64,000 nucleotides of DNA from Ruegeria denitrificans (GTDB taxonomy: Bacteria; Pseudomonadota; Alphaproteobacteria; Rhodobacterales; Rhodobacteraceae), in the NCBI RefSeq assembly GCF_001458295.1, contig NZ_CYUD01000004.1, positions 62,001 to 126,000 of the forward strand, written 5' to 3'. The position numbers and the translations under genes are program-made. Below, piece by piece: positions 5,403 through 56,178 of the stretch (position 1 is its first letter; the number at the start of each line of letters is the position of its first letter). The notes under the pieces were generated by a model. That model did no database searches, was not told the DNA's origin, and saw only the letters and a program-made list of their open reading frames with translations.

Positions 5403-5429
5403 GGCAAACGCCCCGCCACGCGGGGTGTA

Positions 5430-5705
5430 GGGACCTTGGATTTCCCCCCGGATTTCCGGTCCCGACGAATACGGAACAAGGCAAAGCCTGAGACTTACCA
5501 CTAGGCGTCTTGTTCCACTCGGCCGACATGCCCGTGTTGGCCGGGAACAGGGTGGGGCGGAATATTTGCTCTTTCCCACTCTTTCACGGGGCGGGTGCGC
5601 TCGCCCCATGCGCAGTCCAGGCCGCAGGCAAAAAAATACCGGGCGGTCAACGAAATGAGCCTGGAAGGCGAAACTGACAGGGGGCTTCGGCCCCCTTTCT
5701 TTTTT
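5430..5705 (+). ncRNA. Candidate structured RNA or structured 3' UTR downstream of nrdJ
   Basis: After a small hairpin just past the nrdJ stop (CCCCG/CGGGG, 5411-5425) come further consecutive stems. GGGACC (5430-5435) pairs with GGTCCC (5458-5463). GGAACAAG (5473-5480) pairs with CTTGTTCC (5509-5516), enclosing GCCT/AGGC (5486-5489 with 5503-5506). CGGCCGACA (5520-5528) pairs with TGTTGGCCG (5535-5543). GGGGCG (5588-5593) pairs with CGCCCC (5602-5607). The stretch ends in a strong intrinsic terminator at 5680-5705. Reading frames crossing it have no family features. I do not see hallmarks of RNase P, tmRNA or SRP RNA. It may be an independent sRNA or the nrdJ 3' UTR. Confidence 0.45.
5680..5705 (+). 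terminator. Intrinsic terminator after the nrdJ 3' region
   Basis: GGGGGC, a TTCG tetraloop and GCCCCC form a six-pair stem (5680-5695), followed directly by TTTCTTTTTT (5696-5705). This is a textbook Rho-independent terminator on the + strand. Confidence 0.9.
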
Positions 5706-5950
5706 CAGACGCGATCGGGAATCTGAGCAGGGTTTTGCCGGATTGTGCATTCCCTATCGGGCAAACCCCGCCGAGCCAGCTTGCGGGAATTTTGCCCAGC
5801 GGCTGACCGCAGATGCGACTCGGAAAAACACGCAAAGATTGGCGCGAAAGTGAGTTTTTCCCGCAACGCGGGTGACAGCAGCTTGGGTTGCGGTGTTTGT
5901 GATGCTTGTCCGGACGCAAACACTTAAAAACTCAATCAGGAGGCATCACA

Positions 5951-6196
5951 ATGAAACCGCAAACTCTGGCCGCTATTTCCGCCATTGCCCTTGGACTGCC
6001 GGCGCTGGCCGTCGCACAATCCTCGGCAGATGCAAATGGGGATGGCGTGCTGACCATCGAAGAAGTGCAGGCAGTTGTGCCTGGTGTTGACGCAGATGTT
6101 TTCTCGGCAATGGATGCCAACGGCGACGGAGCGCTGGATGAGGCCGAGATTGCCGTGGCACAGGAAGCAGGCCTACTGCCGGCGACTGACGGCTAA
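5951..6196 (+). CDS. Exported EF-hand calcium-binding protein
   Basis: The protein has 81 residues, with an N-terminal signal peptide of about 22 residues ending at AVAQ. The mature part carries two EF-hand loops with the Dx(D/N)xDG pattern: DANGDGVLTIEE and DANGDGALDEAE. A perfect AGGAGG Shine-Dalgarno lies 5 bases upstream of the ATG at 5951, which fixes the start. It is a single-gene unit between the terminator at 5705 and a bidirectional terminator at 6206-6236. A periplasmic calcium-binding or calcium-sensing role is a family inference, and the partner is unknown. Confidence 0.88.
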   Translation: MKPQTLAAISAIALGLPALAVAQSSADANGDGVLTIEEVQAVVPGVDADVFSAMDANGDGALDEAEIAVAQEAGLLPATDG

Positions 6197-6205
6197 CGCA
6201 TTTAA

Positions 6206-6236
6206 GAAAGCGGCCAGATAGTTTCTGGCCGCTTTT
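6206..6236. terminator. Bidirectional intrinsic terminator
   Basis: A twelve-pair stem AAAGCGGCCAGA/TCTGGCCGCTTT with a 5-base loop is flanked by A and T runs. It sits between the convergent EF-hand and MttB-family genes and can serve both strands. Confidence 0.9.
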
Positions 6237-6243
6237 CAGTGCT

Positions 6244-7788
6244 TTACAAGGGTAAGTGAATTTTGAAGTTGGCCCGGAGTTCCGCGTCGAGCAACGGATC
6301 GAAACGGGCTGGCGACGGGGTCGACAAGATTTCTTCCTTCCGCTTGATCGCTTTTTCGATCAGACCGGGTTTACCAAGCTCGACCCATTCCTTGGGCGAC
6401 GTGCGGTCGCCGAAAACGGGATACACATAATCCGCCTGCATTCGGCTGAGCGTTGCATCGGTGCCCAGATAATGACCCGGCCCGCCCATACAGACCTCGG
6501 CGATCTGGTCCAGAGCCAGCGTTTCGTCAGTAACCTCGATCCCGCGCACGCAGCGTTGCGCCTGACCGATCAGGTCGTCACTGAGGATCAAGCTCTCATG
6601 GCAGAAGCCCAGCAGCGACGCATGCATGCCCGCCGCTTCGTATACCATGTTCAGACCGGACAGACCCGCCATGACGTTCGAGCACATTTGCTCCCATCCG
6701 GCTTGCATGTCGGGCAGTTTCGAATCCGATGCGCCAGCGGCAGCACCGCCTGGCAGGTCATAAAAGCGATGCATCTGAGCGCAGCCCGCCGTTAGCAGGG
6801 CTTGTTCGCCCGAACCGATGGACATTGCTCCTGTGCGCAGGTCCAGACCAAACGGCCAGGTGCCAAAAACTGCCGGGGCGCCAGGACTTACGGCGTTTAC
6901 GTAAACCAGTCCGGCCAGACATTCCGCAGTGGCCTGTGTGATCGCACCGGCGATGGTCGAGGGCGCGGTTGCACCAGCCATCCCGGCGGACAGCAGCAGA
7001 ACCGGCATACCTGCCTTGATGCACTCTTCCATCACTTCGCAGCTTTCCGTTGCGAATTTCATTGGCGGAACGACAAAACAGTTCGAGTTCGAAACGAAGG
7101 GACGCTCACGGTATTTGTCCTCACCGCCAGCGATCATATAGATCATCTCCATCGCGGGGGCGACATGGCTTGGTTCGGTGAAGGACGTACCGATATGTTT
7201 GAACGTGCCCGAACAGGCGGCGTAAATCGTGTTAAGGTCCATTTCCAAATTGTCCACGATATCGCGGCACACCATGGGACGTTGGACAAAATGTATGTTT
7301 TCCAGCTGCTGACAGATGCGTGCCGCGTCGTGCAGATCCTGAACAGTCGAGTCGCGATATTCCTGCCCGTGCACGTCAACCATGCTGACGGCGGCCCCGG
7401 CGGTTCCATAGTGAACTTTGGTGCCCGACAGCTCCAAATCGGTTTTTCCATCGCGGCTGTGTAAGGTGATCGAGCGGTTGGCCTTGGCAATTGTATCTTC
7501 GACTAAGGCGCGCGGAAACCGAATGCGGCCATCGTCGCCCAGGATGCAACCGGCACCGACCAGATAGTCGATGCCGCTTTGCGGGGCATCGGCCAGACCG
7601 ATGGTTTCCAATGCTGTCAGGGCGGCTTGATGGATGCGCTCGATCTGGGCTTGAGTCAGCACATTGAGAACGCCACCTTCCATGCCGGGGCGGACAGGGC
7701 GCAGATGTTCGGGCAGGGCAGTGGCACGGGCGGCGCGACGGGCTGCGCGACCGCCGGTACGGGAAGAGGTGCGGGATTGATCGTTCAT
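6244..7788 (-). CDS. MttB-family (COG5598) corrinoid-dependent methyltransferase, non-pyrrolysine type
   Basis: The 514-residue protein belongs to the trimethylamine/glycine-betaine methyltransferase superfamily, which moves a methyl group from a methylated amine to a cognate corrinoid protein. Recognisable segments are GVLNVLTQAQIERIHQAAL near residue 40, HYGTAGAAVSMVDVHG near 128, and GGAAAGASDSKLPDMQAGWE near 350. The frame is continuous with no in-frame amber, so it is not the pyrrolysine-containing MttB of methanogens; such homologues act on betaines or remain uncharacterised. The first 25 residues are Arg/Gly/Ala-rich and precede the catalytic domain. A 30-codon ORF and a hairpin lie immediately upstream. 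No corrinoid protein is adjacent, so the substrate cannot be named. Confidence 0.9.
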   Translation of the reverse strand: MNDQSRTSSRTGGRAARRAARATALPEHLRPVRPGMEGGVLNVLTQAQIERIHQAALTALETIGLADAPQSGIDYLVGAGCILGDDGRIRFPRALVEDTIAKANRSITLHSRDGKTDLELSGTKVHYGTAGAAVSMVDVHGQEYRDSTVQDLHDAARICQQLENIHFVQRPMVCRDIVDNLEMDLNTIYAACSGTFKHIGTSFTEPSHVAPAMEMIYMIAGGEDKYRERPFVSNSNCFVVPPMKFATESCEVMEECIKAGMPVLLLSAGMAGATAPSTIAGAITQATAECLAGLVYVNAVSPGAPAVFGTWPFGLDLRTGAMSIGSGEQALLTAGCAQMHRFYDLPGGAAAGASDSKLPDMQAGWEQMCSNVMAGLSGLNMVYEAAGMHASLLGFCHESLILSDDLIGQAQRCVRGIEVTDETLALDQIAEVCMGGPGHYLGTDATLSRMQADYVYPVFGDRTSPKEWVELGKPGLIEKAIKRKEEILSTPSPARFDPLLDAELRANFKIHLPL

Positions 7789-7815
7789 AATTCGGATTCC
7801 GGTCGTTAAGGGGGT

Positions 7816-7843
7816 GTCAGAGTGATTGTTTTAAACCTCTGAC
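7816..7843 (-). promoter_or_regulatory. Hairpin between leader ORF and mttB-family gene
   Basis: GTCAGAG and CTCTGAC form a perfect seven-pair stem with a 14-base loop. On the minus strand the loop contains the stop codon of the upstream 30-codon ORF, and the stem ends 27 bases before the methyltransferase ATG. The position suggests an attenuator or translational-coupling element. There is no T run, so it is not a plain terminator. Confidence 0.5.
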
Positions 7844-7923
7844 GGCCGCCCACGCGCCGCACGACCGCGATCCGCACCGATGGTGCGGCTGACCAGCCGA
7901 ATCTTCCAAACGTCGTCTTGCAT
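7831..7923 (-). CDS. Small 30-residue leader ORF upstream of the MttB-family gene
   Basis: The ORF runs from an ATG at 7923 to a TAA at 7831 and encodes 30 residues beginning MQDDVWKIRLVSRT, with six arginines in its last 18 residues. A strong Shine-Dalgarno (AAGGTGAGG, GAGG core 6 bases from ATG) supports translation, better than the weak site of the methyltransferase itself. Its stop codon lies in the loop of the hairpin at 7816-7843, 42 bases before the downstream gene. I recognise no domain. It may be a regulatory leader peptide or a free small protein. Confidence 0.5.
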   Translation of the reverse strand: MQDDVWKIRLVSRTIGADRGRAARGRPSEV

Positions 7924-8205
7924 TCAGGTCCTCACCTTATGAAACGAATTATCCAGATGTGTCCTGCGGCAATCTGTTCTGTTTGCGACCTGAGGGTCTA
8001 AAAGCGAAGTATACATGAAGATGTCACACTCGTAATTTGTCTGCTCAAGTTTTTTTCTGAGGCAAATAAAATTCTGTTATAGTTCCTTCACTTATTTAAG
8101 AGTGGTTCGTGATCTCAATTGAATTTTAATGGTCGTGAACCAAGTTTTTGAGTTAGCATGACTTAACCCAACGTCGCTGCGACGAAAGGTGTTTAGGAGA
8201 GATTT
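7924..8205. other. AT-rich divergent intergenic region
   Basis: The region separates the leader ORF from the beta-barrel gene. It is far more AT-rich than its surroundings between about 8000 and 8160 and presumably contains both promoters. A TATAGT hexamer at 8078-8083 has only a poor -35 partner. An inverted repeat TGGTTC/GAACCA lies at about 8103-8142. No gene is visible. Confidence 0.45.
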
Positions 8206-8724
8206 ATGAATGCCCTTAAGGCCCTCAGTCTCACTTTGATGGTGTCATTCGTGACCCCGTTATGGGCTGAAGATTGGACCGGGGCTTATGCAGGCTTCAG
8301 CTTTGGCTACGCGGATGCGGACGGTCCGAACGGCGGCAGCGGTGATGATCTGACCTTTGGCCCGCATATTGGCTATGATCGCGACTTCGGAAATTTTGTT
8401 CTGGGCGGTGAACTTGAATACAACAGCCTGTCATTGGATTTGGGTCAGAGCGAGGGATCACTGGACAGCATGACCCGTCTGAAGCTGCGCGGTGGATACG
8501 ATTTCGGTCCGGCCCTGGGCTATGTCGTTATCGGTGCGTCGCGGGTGGATAGCTCGGTCGATAATGATACTGCCGCAGTGTATGGAATTGGCGTGGCCTA
8601 TCCCATAGGTGATCGCTTTGTCATCAGCGGCGAGGCGTTGCGGCAGGAATTCGACGACGTCACCCGATCAGATGGGTCGCTGGATTCGAACGTCTTCAAC
8701 CTGCGCACGTCCTTCCGGTTCTGA
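8206..8724 (+). CDS. Outer-membrane beta-barrel protein (opacity/OmpA-like porin fold)
   Basis: The protein has 172 residues with a signal peptide cut near LWAE (residue 22). The mature part alternates short amphipathic strands rich in Gly, Tyr and Phe (WTGAYAGFSFGY, FVLGGELEYN, MTRLKLRGGYDFG, RFVISGEALRQEF) and ends in a terminal Phe (FRF), the outer-membrane insertion signal. This fits an eight-stranded barrel. GGAGAG lies 6 bases before the ATG. It is a stand-alone gene; ligand or function cannot be inferred. Confidence 0.85.
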   Translation: MNALKALSLTLMVSFVTPLWAEDWTGAYAGFSFGYADADGPNGGSGDDLTFGPHIGYDRDFGNFVLGGELEYNSLSLDLGQSEGSLDSMTRLKLRGGYDFGPALGYVVIGASRVDSSVDNDTAAVYGIGVAYPIGDRFVISGEALRQEFDDVTRSDGSLDSNVFNLRTSFRF

Positions 8725-8730
8725 CTTCCC

Positions 8731-9921
8731 CTAACTTGCAACAGCAGGACGGTTCGCCAGATCAGTTGCGAACTCGCAGATCGTCGACAAGGCCGCTGCG
8801 AACCGTTCGTCGTCAATGGTCATGGCCACGCGGATATGACCGGCAGCTGCTGACCCAAAACTCTCACCCGGCATCACGGCAATGGCGTGTGTATCCAACA
8901 GGGCGTTGGCGAAATCCTCACCGCCGAGACCCGTGGCGCGGATGTCTAGCATCAGGTACATGGCTCCTTGCGCCGGAACCAGACCAACCGTGTTCTGGGC
9001 TTTCAAAATATCCACGGCAAGCTCACGTCGCCTGCGGAAGGGCGCGGCGATCTGCTCCTCCAGCGCGCTGCCTGCGTTCAGAGCGAAACTGGCGGCATCC
9101 TGAATAAACCCGGGAACCCCGTAGGTGGTGTGCGTGGCGAGGTTTATCAGATGCGAAATTACCTCTTCCGGTCCAACAATCCAACCGCAGCGCGAACCGG
9201 TCATGGCGTGCGACTTGGACATCGATCCGACGACCAATGTACGTTCGGCCATTTCCGGCAGGGTGCGCGGCGAAATATGTGAGCCTTCCCAAACCTGTGT
9301 ATCGTAAACCTCATCTGAAATTAGCCAAAGATCACGTCTGCGACAAACTTCGGCGATCCCTTCGAGCGTCCGACGGGAATAGACGACTCCGGTGGGGTTG
9401 TTTGGAGTGTTAATCAATAGAGATACCGCACCCTCTGCAGCGGCGTCGATTTGCTCGGCACGCGGTTGGAACGCATCTTTGGAGGTCGTCTCAATCGCCC
9501 GTGCCACCGCGCCAGCGCCGCGGATCGTACCGGGATAAGTGGCATAGTAAGGGTCCAGATAAAGACCAACATCACCCGGATCGCAAACCGCAAAATGCGC
9601 AGCGAACAAGGCCGATTGCCCACCGGGGGTGATCAGCACGTTGTGGCGGATGGTGGGTACACCGGTGCGCGCTTGCAGCCGGGCGGCCACAGTATCGCGA
9701 AGCAAATCCGTGCCGGGCACCATTGCATAGCCGGTGTGGCCCTGACGTGCCGAAAGGTCCATGGCCTCAAGAATCGCAGAATCGGTGCGGACGTCATGTT
9801 CGCCAATAGTCAGTTCAGTTACAGCATAGCCGTCGCTGATCATCCGCCGGGCACGATAGAACACATCCCAGCCGTCACTGCCGCCGCCGGTCAGATGAGT
9901 AATACGCTGCGACAATTTCAT
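8731..9921 (-). CDS. Class I/II pyridoxal-phosphate aminotransferase
   Basis: The 396-residue protein has the aspartate-aminotransferase fold (type I). Visible signatures are ITPGGQSALF for cofactor phosphate contacts, NTPNNPTG at about residue 170, SDEVYD for the PLP-nitrogen aspartate and tyrosine, and SMSKSHAMTGSRCGW with the Schiff-base lysine and phosphate-binding arginine near residue 235. The C-terminal HIRVAM supplies the carboxylate-binding arginine. Overall look is closest to arginine:pyruvate-type or general amino-acid transaminases, but substrate cannot be set from sequence. It is a single gene, divergent from cysS. Confidence 0.88.
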   Translation of the reverse strand: MKLSQRITHLTGGGSDGWDVFYRARRMISDGYAVTELTIGEHDVRTDSAILEAMDLSARQGHTGYAMVPGTDLLRDTVAARLQARTGVPTIRHNVLITPGGQSALFAAHFAVCDPGDVGLYLDPYYATYPGTIRGAGAVARAIETTSKDAFQPRAEQIDAAAEGAVSLLINTPNNPTGVVYSRRTLEGIAEVCRRRDLWLISDEVYDTQVWEGSHISPRTLPEMAERTLVVGSMSKSHAMTGSRCGWIVGPEEVISHLINLATHTTYGVPGFIQDAASFALNAGSALEEQIAAPFRRRRELAVDILKAQNTVGLVPAQGAMYLMLDIRATGLGGEDFANALLDTHAIAVMPGESFGSAAAGHIRVAMTIDDERFAAALSTICEFATDLANRPAVAS

Positions 9922-49830: not shown

Positions 49831-50127
49831 ATGCCTGACGTCACCATCGTATACTGGCGCGATATTCCCGCCCAAGTCATCGTCGGCAAGGGCCGCCGTG
49901 GCGCAAAGCGGCAGTTGGAGGAGCGGTTCGAGCAAGCCATCGACCGGGCTGCTATGAAGGTGAACGCCAAGGACAGTGATGCCTATCTGGCCGAATGGCG
50001 CAAAGCCGCACCCTTTGCAGTTGATGGCGACCCGTCAGAAATTGCCGAGGCCGAGGCTGTGCGTTTGGAAACGGAATACGATCAGGACCGCATCAAAGCG
50101 CTGATCGCCAATGACGGTTGGGCATGA
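49831..50127 (+). CDS. Small virulence-factor-domain protein heading the C1 cluster
   Basis: The 98-residue protein (PDVTIVYWRDIPAQVIVGKG at the N-terminus) matches the small family misleadingly named virulence factor (Pfam Virulence_fact type). It has a beta-strand start, a basic GKGRRGAKRQ segment and a helical remainder, with no signal or membrane segment. TAGGAGGA is well placed before the ATG. It starts an apparent operon with an MTHFR-like protein and a methyl-THF:corrinoid methyltransferase, so a role in C1 transfer is more plausible than virulence; this is inference. Confidence 0.75.
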   Translation: MPDVTIVYWRDIPAQVIVGKGRRGAKRQLEERFEQAIDRAAMKVNAKDSDAYLAEWRKAAPFAVDGDPSEIAEAEAVRLETEYDQDRIKALIANDGWA

Positions 50128-50153: not shown

Positions 50154-51080
50154 ATGGCTTTGCTGAACTTCAAGAAACGTGACACGGTCGAAAACGGCCC
50201 AGTGAACCCGACCGTCGAAGCCTTTTTGCAGGGCTATTCGATCGAGGTGATGCCACGCACCGCCGAAAAGGTCGAAGATTTCCGCGCGCTGTTGCCCGAA
50301 GGCACCCGCGTCTACATCGCCCATATCGAGGGCACGCCCATCGAGGATATGGTTAAGACCGCTAAGCGGATCGCGGACGAAGGTTATCCAGTGATGCCGC
50401 ACTTCCCGGCGCGGATCATCAAGGATGCGGCAACGCTGGAAAACTGGATCTCGATGTATCAGGGCGAAGCGGGCGTCGATCAGGCGCTGCTGCTGGCCGG
50501 TGGTGTCACGAATCCGCACGGCGATTTCGACAGCTCGATGCAGTTGCTGGAAAGTGGTCTGTTCGACAAGGCGGGCTTCAAACGTCTGCACGTGGCGGGC
50601 CATCCCGAGGGCAACAAAGACATTGACCCAGACGGCTCGACCAAGAATGTCGACGACGCGCTGCGTTGGAAACAGCAATTCTCGGAAACCACCGATGCAG
50701 AAATGGCGCTGGCAACACAGTTTGCCTTCGACGCCAAACCGATCATCGCTTGGGCCGACGGCCTGAAAGAAGCGGGCATCGACCTGCCGATCCACATCGG
50801 GATCGCTGGTCCAGCCAAGCTGCAGACCCTGATCAAATTCGCCATCGCCTGCGGCGTTGGTCCCTCGCTGAAGGTTCTGCAGAAGCGCGCTATGGATGTC
50901 TCCAAGTTGCTGCTGCCTTACGAGCCGACCGATGTTGTCACCGAGCTGGCCAACCACAAGGCAGCTAACCCGGATTTCAACATCACCAACGTACACTTCT
51001 TTCCACTTGGCGGCATCAAGACCAACGCCAACTGGGCCATCAACAACGGCGGTGCTTCGGCGCAGCCGGCAAACTCCTAA
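50154..51080 (+). CDS. Divergent methylenetetrahydrofolate reductase-like protein
   Basis: The protein has 308 residues from the ATG at 50154 (GGGAGG upstream). It follows the MetF barrel: SIEVMPRTAEKVEDF at residues 29-43 aligns with the E. coli FEFFPPR strand and keeps the glutamate (Glu31), YPVMPHFPAR near 78 matches the APHL strand, and ATQFAFDAKP near 190 matches the ITQFFFD strand. The loop that reads RGDLPP in E. coli reads GGVTNPHG here (residues 116-123), so the catalytic aspartate appears to be valine. In this context it may oxidise methyl-THF to methylene-THF, but activity is uncertain. Confidence 0.82.
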   Translation: MALLNFKKRDTVENGPVNPTVEAFLQGYSIEVMPRTAEKVEDFRALLPEGTRVYIAHIEGTPIEDMVKTAKRIADEGYPVMPHFPARIIKDAATLENWISMYQGEAGVDQALLLAGGVTNPHGDFDSSMQLLESGLFDKAGFKRLHVAGHPEGNKDIDPDGSTKNVDDALRWKQQFSETTDAEMALATQFAFDAKPIIAWADGLKEAGIDLPIHIGIAGPAKLQTLIKFAIACGVGPSLKVLQKRAMDVSKLLLPYEPTDVVTELANHKAANPDFNITNVHFFPLGGIKTNANWAINNGGASAQPANS

Positions 51081-51089
51081 GGAACGGAC

Positions 51090-52154
51090 ATGACCCGTAC
51101 AGTCGTAGAATCAAAAACAAAAACTGCCGTTCTGGGCTTTGACGAACCGTTCTGCGTGATCGGTGAGCGGATCAACCCGACCGGCCGAAAAAAGCTGGCT
51201 GCTGAACTGGAAGCGGGCGATTTCTCGACCGTCGAGAAAGACGCTATCGCGCAGGTCGCGGCAGGGGCCACCGTTCTGGATATCAACGCGGGTGTTGTCT
51301 ACAACTCGAACCCCAACCCGAACGAGACCGAGCCGCCATTGATGCGCAAGATCGTCGAACTGGTGCAGGGGCTGGTCGAAGTGCCGCTGTGCATCGACTC
51401 GTCGGTTCCTGGTGCGCTGGAAGCTGGTCTTGCAGCGGCTGAGGGTCGTCCGCTGCTGAACTCGGTCACCGGCGAAGAAGAGCGTCTGGAACTGGTTCTG
51501 CCCCTGGTCAAAAAGTACAACGTGCCGGTCGTCGCGATCTCGAATGATGACACTGGTATTTCGGAAGACCCCGATGTGCGTTTCGAAGTGGCCCGCAAGA
51601 TCGTTGAGCGCGCCGCTGACTTCGGCATTCCGGCGCATGACATCGTCGTTGACCCGCTTGTCATGCCCATCGGTGCGATGGCAACTGCCGGTCAGCAGGT
51701 GTTTGCTCTGGTTCGTCGCCTGCGCGAGGAACTGGGCGTGAACACAACGTGCGGCGCGTCCAACGTCTCGTTCGGTCTGCCGAACCGTCACGGCATCAAC
51801 AACGCGTTCCTGCCGATGGCGATGGGTGCTGGTATGACCTCGGCGATCATGAACCCGGTGGCTCTACCGACCACCCAAAAGAAGATTGCTGAGAAGAAAG
51901 AACAAGTTGCCGCTGCTGGCATCATCTTGCCCGAAGGTATGGATGATGAAGCCTTCGTTCAGATGTTTGGTCTGGGTTCCACCAAGCCGCGCGCTGGTAA
52001 GGAAATGGAGGCCATCCGCGCCGCCAACTTGCTGACGAACAATGACCCGCATGGCGGTGAATGGATTCGATTCAACAAAGCTCCAGAAGAAGCCGGTGCT
52101 GCTGGCGCTGCTGGTGGCCGTCGCGGCGGTGGCCGTCGTCGCCGCGCTTCTTGA
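51090..52154 (+). CDS. Methyltetrahydrofolate:corrinoid methyltransferase (pterin-binding, MtgA/AcsE-like)
   Basis: The 354-residue protein is a DHPS-like barrel that moves methyl groups between a corrinoid protein and tetrahydrofolate. Signatures are VIGERINPTGRKKLAAEL near residue 17, VLDINAGVVYNSNPN near 60, ISNDDTGISEDPDV near 150, and CGASNVSFGLPNRHGINNAF near 218. The catalytic domain ends near residue 330. The last 22 residues are Ala/Gly then Arg-rich (AGGRRGGGRRRRAS), which is not part of the fold. It lies 9 bases after the MTHFR-like gene. No MetH-type corrinoid domain is fused. Confidence 0.92.
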   Translation: MTRTVVESKTKTAVLGFDEPFCVIGERINPTGRKKLAAELEAGDFSTVEKDAIAQVAAGATVLDINAGVVYNSNPNPNETEPPLMRKIVELVQGLVEVPLCIDSSVPGALEAGLAAAEGRPLLNSVTGEEERLELVLPLVKKYNVPVVAISNDDTGISEDPDVRFEVARKIVERAADFGIPAHDIVVDPLVMPIGAMATAGQQVFALVRRLREELGVNTTCGASNVSFGLPNRHGINNAFLPMAMGAGMTSAIMNPVALPTTQKKIAEKKEQVAAAGIILPEGMDDEAFVQMFGLGSTKPRAGKEMEAIRAANLLTNNDPHGGEWIRFNKAPEEAGAAGAAGGRRGGGRRRRAS

Positions 52155-52175
52155 GCCGGAACCCCAATAAATGAT

Positions 52176-52203
52176 AAGGCCGGGCCTTGTGCCCGGCCTT
52201 TTT
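52176..52203 (+). terminator. Intrinsic terminator of the C1 operon
   Basis: AAGGCCGGGC and GCCCGGCCTT form a ten-pair stem with a CTTGT loop, followed by a short T run. It ends the unit 49831-52154. Confidence 0.88.
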
Positions 52204-52283
52204 CGTTCTTGATACCGATCAAAGCCCAAGCTGGGATGATGGATCAGACTGTCTGGAACCGTTGACCAAGGACCAGCGCATTC

Positions 52284-53111
52284 ATGACCAAACATCACCC
52301 TCCTAAACTTGCAGATGCGGATCTGAGCCTGAAACTGGGCAAACAGAGCTATTTCAAGAAACTGGCGGAGTTGCAGGCCCAATTGGCCCTGATTCAACAA
52401 GCCTTTCTGTTTCATGGAACCAAGGGCGTGTTGGTTTTTGAAGGATGGGACGCGGCAGGCAAGGGCGGCACGATCCGACGGATCAGCCAAGCACTGGACC
52501 CGCGCAGTTTCAAGGTGTGGCCAATCGGGGTGCCTCGGAACTACTATCTGAACCGTCACTACCTGTTGCGGTTCTGGGAGAGGTTGCCGCCCCAAGGCGC
52601 AATCTCGGCCTTTGACCGCAGCTGGTATGGCAGGGTGCTGGTTGAACGGATCGAGAAGTTCACCCCAGAAGAGCGCTGGCGCGCTGCCTACCGCGAGATT
52701 AACGATTTCGAGCGTTTGTTGGTGGATGACGGCACCCGCATCGTGAAGCTATTTTTTCACATCTCACAGGAAGAGCAGATGGCTCGGTTCACCGAACGCC
52801 TGCGCAACCCGATGAAGCGGTGGAAACTGACCTATGAGGACTTTCGCAATCGTGAGCGATGGGCCGATGCTGAAGTCGCCGTGGATGAGATGCTGGCCCG
52901 CACCTCAACTGAGATTGCGCCGTGGCATGTAGTTCCGGCGAACAACAAGAAACTTGCAAGAATCAGTGCGATGCAGGCGATCGTTGATGCGTTTTCAGAG
53001 GATATCGACCTTAACCCGCAGCATCTGGACGAACGAACGCTGGATGCTGCTTGCGAGGTGCTGGATGTGGATCAGTCCCTGATCGACAGCTTGCGCGCCC
53101 GGACCGAGTAA
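52284..53111 (+). CDS. ppk2: Polyphosphate kinase 2 family protein
   Basis: The 275-residue P-loop kinase uses polyphosphate to phosphorylate nucleotides, or the reverse. Walker A is GWDAAGKGGTIRRI near residue 54, Walker B and lid follow in SAFDRSWYGRVLVERIEKF near residue 113, and RNPMKRWKLTYEDFRNRERW near residue 175 completes the single PPK2 domain. Substrate class cannot be set by eye. It is a single gene behind the C1 operon terminator. Confidence 0.93.
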   Translation: MTKHHPPKLADADLSLKLGKQSYFKKLAELQAQLALIQQAFLFHGTKGVLVFEGWDAAGKGGTIRRISQALDPRSFKVWPIGVPRNYYLNRHYLLRFWERLPPQGAISAFDRSWYGRVLVERIEKFTPEERWRAAYREINDFERLLVDDGTRIVKLFFHISQEEQMARFTERLRNPMKRWKLTYEDFRNRERWADAEVAVDEMLARTSTEIAPWHVVPANNKKLARISAMQAIVDAFSEDIDLNPQHLDERTLDAACEVLDVDQSLIDSLRARTE

Positions 53112-53175
53112 ACGGCCTCTGAGGCGGAAAGGCGCTTGCGGTCGATCAACCGGCGGTGCTATCCAGAGCCGCGCG

Positions 53176-53249
53176 GCGGGTATGATGTAATGGTAGCCTG
53201 TCAGCTTCCCAAGCTGAACGCGCGGGTTCGATTCCCGCTACCCGCTCCA
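53176..53249 (+). tRNA. tRNA-Gly (anticodon CCC)
   Basis: The 74-base cloverleaf has acceptor GCGGGTA/TACCCGC, anticodon stem TCAGC/GCTGA with loop TTCCCAA giving CCC, T-arm GGTTCGATTCC and an encoded CCA at 53247-53249. The convergent methyltransferase stop begins 2 bases later. Confidence 0.95.
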
Positions 53250-53250
53250 A

Positions 53251-54108
53251 TCACTTAGATTTTCGTGCCTGAAACAAGTTGATCAAAGCCGGAATTTCGA
53301 CCGTGTTTGCGGACACATACTGTTGAAACGCCTCGGCGATGGCCGCTTGGATGGCCAAAACGTCCTCGGCATCTCCTTCGAAATGGGTGATCAGGCGGGC
53401 CGCTGGGCCGATACGTGTGCACAGGGTCGCGCAATCCTCTATGGTTCCCCGAATGCGCAATGAGACTGGCACCTGTTCGACGCGAATGTCGGTCAGACCA
53501 GCTTGCTCTAGCAGGCCGGAGACTCGTTCGTGGTCATGAAAAGCCAGTGGACCGGGGGCATTTCGGTCCATCGGAGGCGGGTTGCCCAGTCGGGCGCAGG
53601 CCAAAATATGCGGCGTCTTGAACCACGGGTTCCCGTTTAGTGGACCCCAGGCGGCAAAGGTCATCTGGCCGCCCGGCTTCAACGCCCGCGTCATGTTGGC
53701 AAAGGCAGCTACCGTGTCCTCGAAGAACATAACCCCAAAGCGCGAGATCATCGCATCGCGGTCAACCGCAACAAAGGAGTGGGTCTGCACATCGGCATGT
53801 TGGAGGTCGATGTTGGCCAGTCCTTTCTCGGCAGCCCGTTGCCCAGCGCGGTCCAGAAACGGCTGCGAGAAATCCGCCGCCAGGACGTGCCCGGTTTCAC
53901 CCACGATTTCCGCAGCCCTGACTGTGCTTGCGCCAGTGCCGCAGCCGATATCCAGCACACGCATGCCGGGTTGCAGCCCGGCGCGGTCGAAGACCAGGTC
54001 AAGGACCGGGGCAAGCAACTCATCCATCTGGTCCTCAAAGGTCAACCATTTGGCACCAGAAGGGGAGTTGCTCCAGAATTCGGCCTGTTCTTCGTTTGCA
54101 GCTTGCAT
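53251..54108 (-). CDS. Class I SAM-dependent methyltransferase (UbiE-like)
   Basis: The 285-residue protein has Rossmann motif I VLDIGCGTGASTVRAAE near residue 50, motif II acidic LAADFSQPFL, and VMFFEDTVAAFANMTRALKPGG near residue 125. The substrate is unknown. It lies 24 bases downstream of the corrinoid activator gene and probably shares its mRNA. Its end abuts tRNA-Gly. Confidence 0.88.
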   Translation of the reverse strand: MQAANEEQAEFWSNSPSGAKWLTFEDQMDELLAPVLDLVFDRAGLQPGMRVLDIGCGTGASTVRAAEIVGETGHVLAADFSQPFLDRAGQRAAEKGLANIDLQHADVQTHSFVAVDRDAMISRFGVMFFEDTVAAFANMTRALKPGGQMTFAAWGPLNGNPWFKTPHILACARLGNPPPMDRNAPGPLAFHDHERVSGLLEQAGLTDIRVEQVPVSLRIRGTIEDCATLCTRIGPAARLITHFEGDAEDVLAIQAAIAEAFQQYVSANTVEIPALINLFQARKSK

Positions 54109-54132
54109 GATCGGCTCCTATCGGTGGCGCGA

Positions 54133-56178
54133 CTATGACCGGCGACGGCGACGGCGACCAGACCCTTCCTCGGCCCCGCCGCCGGAGTTGAACGAGGGTG
54201 AGGGCAGCGTAACCACTTGCGCCAGTTCCGGGAACGGATCGGTTTTGTGCGGGATGGCGTTTGCGGCGACGAAATGGTCCTGAAACTTGGGTTCAATCGC
54301 GGTTTCGACCTTGGTAATTTCGCGCACGACGCGCTCGATTTCGGAGCGTGAACTGATATTGCAAAGTGCAATCCGAGCGCCAGTGCCTGCCGCGTTGCCC
54401 GCGCTTGAGACCTTATCCAGCGGTGCGTCAGGGATCATGCCCAGAACCATCGCGTGTTTGGTCGAAATATGCGCACCGAACGCCCCGGCCAGAACAACAC
54501 GATCCACCCTGTCGACTTCCATGACATCCATCAGAAGGCGTGCACCGGCATACAGCGCGGATTTTGCCAGTTGGATGGCGCGGATATCGCCTTGGGTCAC
54601 GGTGATACGCGGGCCGCCTTCGGCGCTGGCGTCGTGGATCAGGTAGGCATGGGTGCGGCCTTCGGGCACACAACGCGCGGTGCCGGTTTGCTCGGCCGAT
54701 CCGATCAGACCGCTTTCATCCAGCAAACCAGCAATACGCATCTCGGCGACGGCCTCGATAATGCCCGAACCGCAGATGCCGGTGATGCCGGTGGTGGAGA
54801 TATCCAGTTCAAAGCCGTCCTCATCGGACCATTTTTCGGACCCAATCACCCGGAAACGAGGCTCTTTGGTGACGGGATCAATCTCGATCCGTTCAATGGC
54901 GCCGGGGGCTGCACGTTGACCGGAACTGATCTGAGCCCCCTCGAACGCCGGGCCGGTGGGTGAGGAACACGCCAGAACGCGGCTGGTGTTACCCAACAGA
55001 ATCTCGGCGTTGGTGCCGACGTCGACGATCAGCACGAGGTCTTCGGATTTGCCCGGCTCTTCCGACAGGGCAACGGCGGCGCAGTCGGCACCGACATGGC
55101 CCGCGATGCAGGGCAGGATATAGACTTGCGCGCGGCGGTTCATATTCGTCAGGTCCATTTCACGCGCGGGCAGGGACATGCTTTCGGATGTGGCCAGCGC
55201 AAACGGAGCCTGACCCAACTCGACCGGGTCCAGGCCCAGCAGTAGGTGGTGCATAACGGGGTTGCAGACGAACACGGTTTCGACGATCAGGTCGCCATCA
55301 ATCCCGGCTTCATCCGCGATCGAGGTGGTCAGGTCATTGATCGCCTCGCGCACTGCTTTGGTCATTTCCTTATCGCCGTCGGGGTTCATCATCGAATATG
55401 ACACGCGGCTCATCAGGTCTTCGCCAAAGCGGATTTGCGGATTCATCAGGCCCGAGGACGCTTTGACTTCACCGGTTTCCAGATCGGTCAGGTGGGCCGC
55501 AATCGTGGTCGAACCAAGGTCGATGGCTAGGCCATACAGCCCGCTTTCATGCAGGCCGGGCCAGATTTCGACGACCTGCGCCACCGAGTCCTTGTGGCCC
55601 TTGTGAACGGCAACCGTGACCTCCCATTTGCCTTTGCGCAGCACCGGTTGCAGCTTGGACATCAGCGACAAATCAGCGGTGACCGCGTCGATATGCCATT
55701 GCTCACGCAGGGCGCGCTCCAGCCGTTCCAGATCACCGGTGGGTGAGTGCATGTCGGGTTCCTCAACCACCACGAAATACAGCCGGGTTGCCGGGTCCAT
55801 GGTTATGGCGCGCGCGGTGGCAGCCTTGCGAACGACCTGACGGTGCACCTGGCTTTCCGGCGGAACGTCAATCACGATGTCGCCCTGAACGGTGGCCTGA
55901 CAGCCCAGACGGCGACCGGTTTTCAGCCCTCGCTTATCGTCATAGCGTTGCTCGACGGCATTCCATTCGCTCAGCGCGTTTTCGGATACGGTCACGCCAT
56001 GCTTGGGAAACTCACCATAGCTGGGCGTAATCTGGCATTTCGAACAGATCCCACGCCCGCCACAGACTGAATCCAGATCTACGCCCAACTGCCGGGCGGC
56101 GGTCAGAACCGGGGTGCCTACGGGGAAATGCCCACGTTTGCCCGAGGGGGTAAAGACAACAAGGGGGTCGGTGGTCAT
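54133..56178 (-). CDS. Reductive activator of corrinoid-dependent methyltransferases (2Fe-2S plus ASKHA, DUF4445 family)
   Basis: The protein has 681 residues from the ATG at 56178; 31 upstream codons lack support. An N-terminal plant-type ferredoxin domain has cysteines 39, 45, 48 and 93 (CGGRGICSKC, then LGCQ). The ASKHA part has AIDLGSTTIAAHL near residue 235, LIVDVGTNAEILLGN near 400, GICGSGIIEAV near 490 and VVLAGAFGAHI near 600. Such proteins use ATP and a low-potential electron to return Co(II) corrinoids to active Co(I). The C-terminus ends EEGSGRRRRRRS, an arginine-rich tail like that of the nearby methyltransferase. Confidence 0.92.
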   Translation of the reverse strand: MTTDPLVVFTPSGKRGHFPVGTPVLTAARQLGVDLDSVCGGRGICSKCQITPSYGEFPKHGVTVSENALSEWNAVEQRYDDKRGLKTGRRLGCQATVQGDIVIDVPPESQVHRQVVRKAATARAITMDPATRLYFVVVEEPDMHSPTGDLERLERALREQWHIDAVTADLSLMSKLQPVLRKGKWEVTVAVHKGHKDSVAQVVEIWPGLHESGLYGLAIDLGSTTIAAHLTDLETGEVKASSGLMNPQIRFGEDLMSRVSYSMMNPDGDKEMTKAVREAINDLTTSIADEAGIDGDLIVETVFVCNPVMHHLLLGLDPVELGQAPFALATSESMSLPAREMDLTNMNRRAQVYILPCIAGHVGADCAAVALSEEPGKSEDLVLIVDVGTNAEILLGNTSRVLACSSPTGPAFEGAQISSGQRAAPGAIERIEIDPVTKEPRFRVIGSEKWSDEDGFELDISTTGITGICGSGIIEAVAEMRIAGLLDESGLIGSAEQTGTARCVPEGRTHAYLIHDASAEGGPRITVTQGDIRAIQLAKSALYAGARLLMDVMEVDRVDRVVLAGAFGAHISTKHAMVLGMIPDAPLDKVSSAGNAAGTGARIALCNISSRSEIERVVREITKVETAIEPKFQDHFVAANAIPHKTDPFPELAQVVTLPSPSFNSGGGAEEGSGRRRRRRS

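Follow-up and report, generated by a model that had tools for sequence, protein, structure and literature searches.

Arginine (Arg)-rich tails are carried by the methyltetrahydrofolate (methyl-THF):corrinoid methyltransferase MtgD and the corrinoid reductive activator RamA of Ruegeria denitrificans, both encoded in the 64,000-nucleotide stretch of DNA analyzed here (the window, C4:62001-126000 in a genome of 4.62 Mb), and in this genome such tails are more than chance. Like appendages are present on the homocysteine subunit MtgE and on MttB-family methyltransferases, and among the families tested they are restricted to clients of one small corrinoid protein, MtgC, which has an acidic N-terminal head. 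We consider it probable, the contact being something that we infer, that disordered Arg tails dock these unrelated clients onto MtgC as an acidic hub and replace the covalent tethers of the single-chain enzyme MetH.

The enzymes themselves are already known. MtgD and RamA are parts of the split methionine synthase/glycine-betaine demethylase (MtgBCDE plus RamA); the split methionine synthase was described in Phaeobacter inhibens (PMC5764234), and in Ruegeria pomeroyi MtgBCDE acts as methionine synthase and betaine demethylase, with both methionine synthesis and growth on betaine reported to need MtgC and MtgD (PMC12478193; published accounts are cited throughout for the parts of their text covered). 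R. denitrificans has this set: an MtgC-type corrinoid protein, separate MtgD and MtgE, a RamA-like activator, and a DUF1638 partner. We found no mention of Arg tails in the literature covered: “arginine” and “tail” are absent from the main text of PMC12478193, “arginine” from PMC12366255, and “arginine-rich” and “tail” from PMC5764234, and no work linking Arg-rich tails to corrinoids, methionine synthase, Rhodobacteraceae, or docking was among the matches listed, a scope that leaves supplements and subscription journals outside.

Arginine-rich termini in the MtgBCDE pathway

MtgD ends in ...PEEAGAAGAAGGRRGGGRRRRAS, an Ala/Gly stretch and then Arg, and RamA ends in ...GGGAEEGSGRRRRRRS, both just as the original prediction, made from the window, had described them. 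The N-terminal stretch that it reported for an MttB-family protein (MNDQSRTSSRTGGRAARRAARA) is also present, but Arg sets in at residues 6-10 rather than directly at residue 1. The underlying observation, that nonhomologous proteins of one pathway have like tails outside their catalytic domains, is thus supported, and the set of three proteins is real but too small: MtgE, which ends in ...APERRTRRRRRA (last residues PERRTRRRRRA), joins it, as do the six MttB-family proteins that are intact in this genome, every one of which has an Arg-rich N-terminus. Three S-methyl_trans matches occur in R. denitrificans, among them the tailed MtgE and a protein (L012) that ends in GRALLAAA. The corrinoid protein, previously thought to be missing, lies 20 kb outside the window (Table 1), and MtgC is the single PF02607 corrinoid protein of the genome.

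Tails were scored by a strict test (the last 20 residues with at least six Arg and a run of at least three) and a loose test (the last 30 residues with at least five Arg and a run of at least two). In a 1.048-Mb sample of the R. denitrificans genome, 892 open reading frames (ORFs) were called mechanically, some false ones among them, and 3 passed the strict test; two of the three are MtgD and RamA, while MtgE lies outside this sample. The original prediction had named tails equally common on unrelated proteins as an outcome that would count against it, and this outcome was not obtained. Strict background rates in the neighborhoods of relatives were 4/1128 and 2/138 ORFs, so that together with the one other R. 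denitrificans ORF the background spans 0.1-1.4%. The loose test is passed by 123/1128 and 13/138 of these background ORFs, which makes it unsuited as a general screen and informative only in orthologue sets.

A pattern built from a single Gly/Arg codon string had no match in the R. denitrificans genome. Of 135 tail reads, in which some genes recur, 129 use two to four different Arg codons; because of these mixed codons, a DNA repeat is ruled out as the source of the tails and selection on the protein is indicated instead. Arg is preferred over Lys, with 743 Arg against 56 Lys in the tails overall. In one genome whose fetched loci are 33% G+C (G062), the tails contain 19 Arg and 3 Lys compared to 38 Arg and 59 Lys in the protein bodies, and the tail Arg are encoded largely by AGA.

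Conservation and specificity

MtgC orthologues (at least 73% identity, compared to 42-48% for other corrinoid proteins and 31-38% for MetH-type matches) were found in 44 of 240 Alphaproteobacteria genomes, R. denitrificans included, from 30 families as counted by their labels. Tails absent or unconserved in relatives, the other adverse outcome that had been named, were not what was found: the loose test was passed by MtgD in 41/41, RamA in 40/43, and MtgE in 31/34 of the MtgC-bearing genomes, and the strict test by 34/41, 33/43, and 30/34, respectively, spanning 29, 29, and 24 families. All three proteins were tailed by the loose test in 28 of the 33 genomes where all three could be read. These counts leave out frames at contig ends, matches short of the C-terminal core, matches below 38% identity, and a second system in one genome (G196), which was kept apart as a control. 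Beyond a MetH match, no MtgD was found in G056 and G127, none at all was found in G173, G127 also had no RamA, and 10 of the 44 genomes had no MtgE orthologue readable to its end.

At the other terminus, at least six Arg were present in the 35 residues before the MttB core, a stretch that may extend above the true start codon, in 37/37 distinct copies, compared to 61/892 ORFs of the R. denitrificans genome. The copies counted, a minority of all MttB match rows, come from the 30 best-scoring loci, the R. denitrificans genome, and incidental finds (38 distinct, one cut copy dropped); four distant MttB paralogues, discussed below, are not among the 37.

Over the phylum, a RamA match was found in 51 of 398 genomes. 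The 44 loci fetched gave 42 called RamA ORFs (the caller missed two), namely, 33 orthologues of 55-81% identity, tailed in 33/33 by the loose and 31/33 by the strict test, and nine distant relatives, none of them tailed (0/9). MtgD beside these loci passed the loose test in 11 of 12 cases, the sole exception being a distant relative, and the strict test in nine. Among 80 named loci, nearly all from Rhodobacterales, 74 RamA ORFs were called (six were missed), 72 of them tailed by the loose and 50 by the strict test, compared to a strict rate of 4/1128 for the ORFs around them, and all nine MtgD ORFs were tailed by the loose test (seven strict). In one genome from outside the Alphaproteobacteria (G313; L303, 2317-12297), an Arg-rich MttB, an acidic-headed MtgC, and a tailed RamA lie within about 10 kb, which suggests transfer of the tailed and headed module as a unit; the 20 kb covered at this locus contained no MtgD.

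Pathway neighbors with no need of MtgC contact had no tails by the strict test, the only one applied to them: 0/105 distinct ORFs with an identity of at least 35%, comprising 0/31 for MetF2 (a count that may include a MetF paralogue), 0/30 for DUF1638, and 0/44 for PF13769. Six paralogous clusters (L267, L269, L270, L271, L273, and L274) encode a corrinoid protein with RamA-like and MtgD-like proteins. All 12 of their MtgD-like and RamA-like proteins are tail-less in both tests, although the L267 MtgD-like end is mildly basic, and their corrinoid proteins have no MtgC-type head; one of these clusters sits in G196, a genome that has a tailed set too. The L274 cluster (5410-9225) consists of a corrinoid protein, a RamA-like activator, and a pterin-binding methyltransferase, with no Arg tails.

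Proposed docking on MtgC and its alternatives

The N-terminal head of MtgC has the rough consensus EEDxDLxxLDDEELVxQMHDDLYDGL and a mean net charge of -12.2 over about 43 residues, taken from 45 distinct heads of orthologues of which one is a fragment, compared to -4.6 for 19 other corrinoid proteins, with head anchoring that is approximate. The Pfam cap domain begins at residue 17, and solved homologues match from residue 12 or later. In the AlphaFold2 model of MtgC (mean confidence score, pLDDT, of 89.5), most of the head is a confident helix, including residues 13-25, and residues 1-3 fall below 50. MtgD residues 331-354 have a pLDDT of about 50, and this tail is predicted to be disordered.

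In the split system, MtgC has to visit MtgD for methyl-THF, MtgE for homocysteine, RamA, and the MttB/MtgB paralogues for betaine and perhaps other methyl donors. Each client carries a flexible stretch with a cluster of about four to seven Arg at a free terminus, the N-terminus in MttB and the C-terminus in MtgD, MtgE, and RamA, and in the mechanism that we propose this stretch would bind the conserved acidic head of MtgC weakly and reversibly. Such a contact would raise the local concentration with no fixed interface and so leave the clients exchangeable. MtgC, most likely its head, is the simplest target because unlike enzyme families gained like appendages where MtgC is the common partner; from the known pathway it is the sole partner common to all tailed enzymes (PMC12478193 and PMC5764234). 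There is precedent in another corrinoid protein, MtaC, whose additional N-terminal domain docks on MtaB (PMC9842639). Of the common purpose originally suggested for the tails, their sharing within one pathway stands, and docking to the corrinoid protein is the version favored here, where the contact itself and the part it would play in the kinetics are what we infer.

Several observations weigh against docking on MtgC. Two distant MttB paralogues (L264 and L272) lie beside other corrinoid proteins and nonetheless keep an Arg-rich N-terminus, with eight and seven Arg, respectively, in the first 35 residues of the longest frame; two others (L265 and L266) have none. Single tails have been lost where the head is kept, in both RamA and MtgE of G084 and in MtgE of G061, and the MtgE tail of G088 is weakened and fails the loose test, again with the head kept. 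RamA of G048 and of G015 ends in other sequence and fails the loose test, although in G015 the Arg run is still present with about 40 more residues after it. Head charge and mean tail charge are not significantly correlated (Spearman -0.28, P = 0.08, n = 41 genomes; one per family, -0.16, P = 0.42, n = 29), and the association of head and tails rests on few evolutionary events. The best fold matches of MtgC are the MttC and MetH B12 domains, and some of its alignments to MetH span 226-231 columns, so the head helix may in part correspond to something in MetH. Finally, Gly/Arg stretches are also typical of RNA binding, and by composition alone the tails resemble RGG-box RNA-binding proteins.

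That last point leads to the main rival, which we regard as unlikely: the tails would bind RNA, DNA, or another polyanion such as polyphosphate, and the enzymes would be gathered on a scaffold or in condensates, their co-localization being indirect. The RGG/poly-Arg composition, the preference for Arg over Lys, and the predicted disorder would all fit, as would the polyphosphate kinase 2 (PPK2) gene beside MtgD in the window and the association of Arg-rich low-complexity regions with nucleic-acid binders (PMC6821194). Among the families tested, however, the tails occur only on enzymes that share MtgC and on neither MetF2 nor DUF1638, and polyanion binding would leave the acidic head of MtgC unexplained. 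It is quite improbable that each tail serves its own active-site region, oligomer interface, or stability, the likeness being convergence with no common target. The tails do sit at different termini and on different folds, and a solved archaeal MttB makes oligomer contacts via its N-terminal strands (PMC9842639). Four kinds of protein would then have converged on the same composition within the MtgC pathway while the MtgD-like and RamA-like paralogues from other corrinoid systems stayed tail-less, which is difficult to account for unless the tails have a target in common. Polybasic termini can bind anionic lipid, but that the tails do so and keep the pathway near betaine uptake at the membrane is very doubtful, since they show no hydrophobic anchor and since neither methionine synthesis nor reactivation includes a step at the membrane. 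Chance or functionless compositional drift is scarcely credible even though many hosts are G+C rich, being contradicted by the AGA-coded tails kept at 33% G+C, the mixed Arg codons, the strict background (1/890 other R. denitrificans ORFs, 4/1128, and 2/138), and conservation over 24-29 families.

If docking on MtgC is taken a step further, we give about even chances to a transferable electrostatic docking code, in which an enzyme, by gaining a disordered Arg-rich terminus, would join the clients of a single acidic B12 carrier. Were this true, aerobic bacteria could take methionine synthase apart and attach further methyl-donor enzymes to one hub, and a tail would predict new clients; up to 14 MttB-family matches, some of them fragments, occur in one genome. 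Such a code, conserved at the termini, would show by what means the B12 carrier of a split cobalamin enzyme stays near several unrelated partners. It would explain how, in marine bacteria that are widespread, one MtgC can support methionine synthesis together with betaine demethylation and reactivation, and would give a sequence signature for finding more B12-dependent demethylases.

Pathway features and comparison with known systems

Table 1. Features of the MtgBCDE pathway in R. denitrificans; positions are those of the window unless a contig (C4) or locus (L013) label is given.
Feature	Position	Strand	Basis
MtgD, methyl-THF:corrinoid methyltransferase (pterin-binding subunit)	51090..52154	+	NF005719/PRK07535, Pfam Pterin_bind, orthologue search
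MtgD Gly/Ala linker and Arg tail EEAGAAGAAGGRRGGGRRRRAS	52086..52151	+	Sequence; AlphaFold2 disorder (predicted)
RamA, RACo-like corrinoid reductive activator	54133..56178	-	Pfam RACo_C_ter, Raco_middle, RACo_linker, Fer2; orthologues
RamA C-terminal tail SFNSGGGAEEGSGRRRRRRS	54136..54195	-	Sequence; comparison with 3zyy
MttB-family methyltransferase (MtgB paralogue)	6244..7788	-	Pfam MTTB, 376 bits; frame without in-frame stop
MttB-family N-terminal Arg/Ala/Gly stretch SRTSSRTGGRAARRAARA	7723..7776	-	Sequence; 37/37 MttB N-termini
MetF2-like methylene-THF reductase paralogue, directly 5' of MtgD	50163..51080	+	Without Arg tail (control)
PF13769 small protein, 5' of MetF2	49831..50127	+	Without Arg tail (control)
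MtgC, corrinoid protein (cap and B12 domain)	C4:41297-41989, 20 kb before window		PF02310, PF02607 over cut-off
DUF1638 gene adjoining MtgC	L013:2541-3206		PF07796, 111.6 bits
MtgE, homocysteine subunit	C4:283762-284775		PF02574; orthologue search

MtgD scores 405 bits against NF005719/PRK07535 (cut-off, 259). An insertion of about 44 residues follows its core (window ~51861-51992); it is present in three aligned genomes of the same family and missing from eleven other MtgC-system sequences of the same alignment. RamA shares 93-96% identity with the six best-matching named loci from Ruegeria, and its assignment as AcsV, the activator of carbon monoxide dehydrogenase/acetyl-CoA synthase (CODH-ACS; NF040756), was rejected at 400 bits against a cut-off of 800. 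The MttB-family protein was likewise rejected as the pyrrolysine trimethylamine methyltransferase TIGR02369, with 361 bits against an equivalog cut-off of 525 and no stop in its frame, an in-frame TAG being a mark of that enzyme. The same genome, which has intact paralogues, also has an MttB-family copy that is broken into two pieces and contains in-frame stops (C23:17043-18004; L008 and L009). Between MtgD and RamA lie the PPK2 gene (PF03976, window 52284-53111) and, next to it, a gene for a UbiE-like methyltransferase (window 53251-54108). The PF13769 “Virulence_fact” protein has 44 distinct homologues in the loci fetched for the pathway, and its Pfam name may mislead.

The proteins are the same as those of MtgBCDE in R. 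pomeroyi (PMC12478193) and P. inhibens (PMC5764234): MtgC, MtgD, MtgE, MtgB paralogues, RamA, and DUF1638 beside MtgC. The Arg tails and the acidic head go unmentioned in the covered parts of those accounts, supplements aside. In MtaB-MtaC and MttB-MttC (2I2X and 7XCN; PMC9842639), a barrel methyltransferase docks on a cap-plus-B12 corrinoid protein, and MtaC has its extra N-terminal docking domain; these are described as cognate pairs, whereas the clients of MtgC are several. Solved archaeal MttB and 2qne/9yce match the R. denitrificans MttB-family protein only from query residue 35 or 40, past the Arg stretch. The solved chain 4yyc, from S. meliloti, does carry an Arg stretch, in contrast to 2qne, whose match begins only beyond it. 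The Pfam MTTB profile itself extends into the Arg stretch, most rows matching from profile position 1-8 and L264-L266 only from 26-30. RamA is homologous over its RACo domains to the activators of CODH-ACS (3zyy and 4c1n), but solved RACo 3zyy has only 9 residues beyond the match, compared to 36 in RamA.

MetH carries its methyl-THF, B12, and homocysteine modules, homologous to the subunits of the split system, covalently joined in a single chain, whereas the split system has separate chains with charged termini. The acyl carrier protein, a small acidic hub for enzymes that dock through Arg/Lys surfaces, is similar to the picture proposed for MtgC, although its partners are known to dock by folded patches rather than by appended disordered Arg tails.

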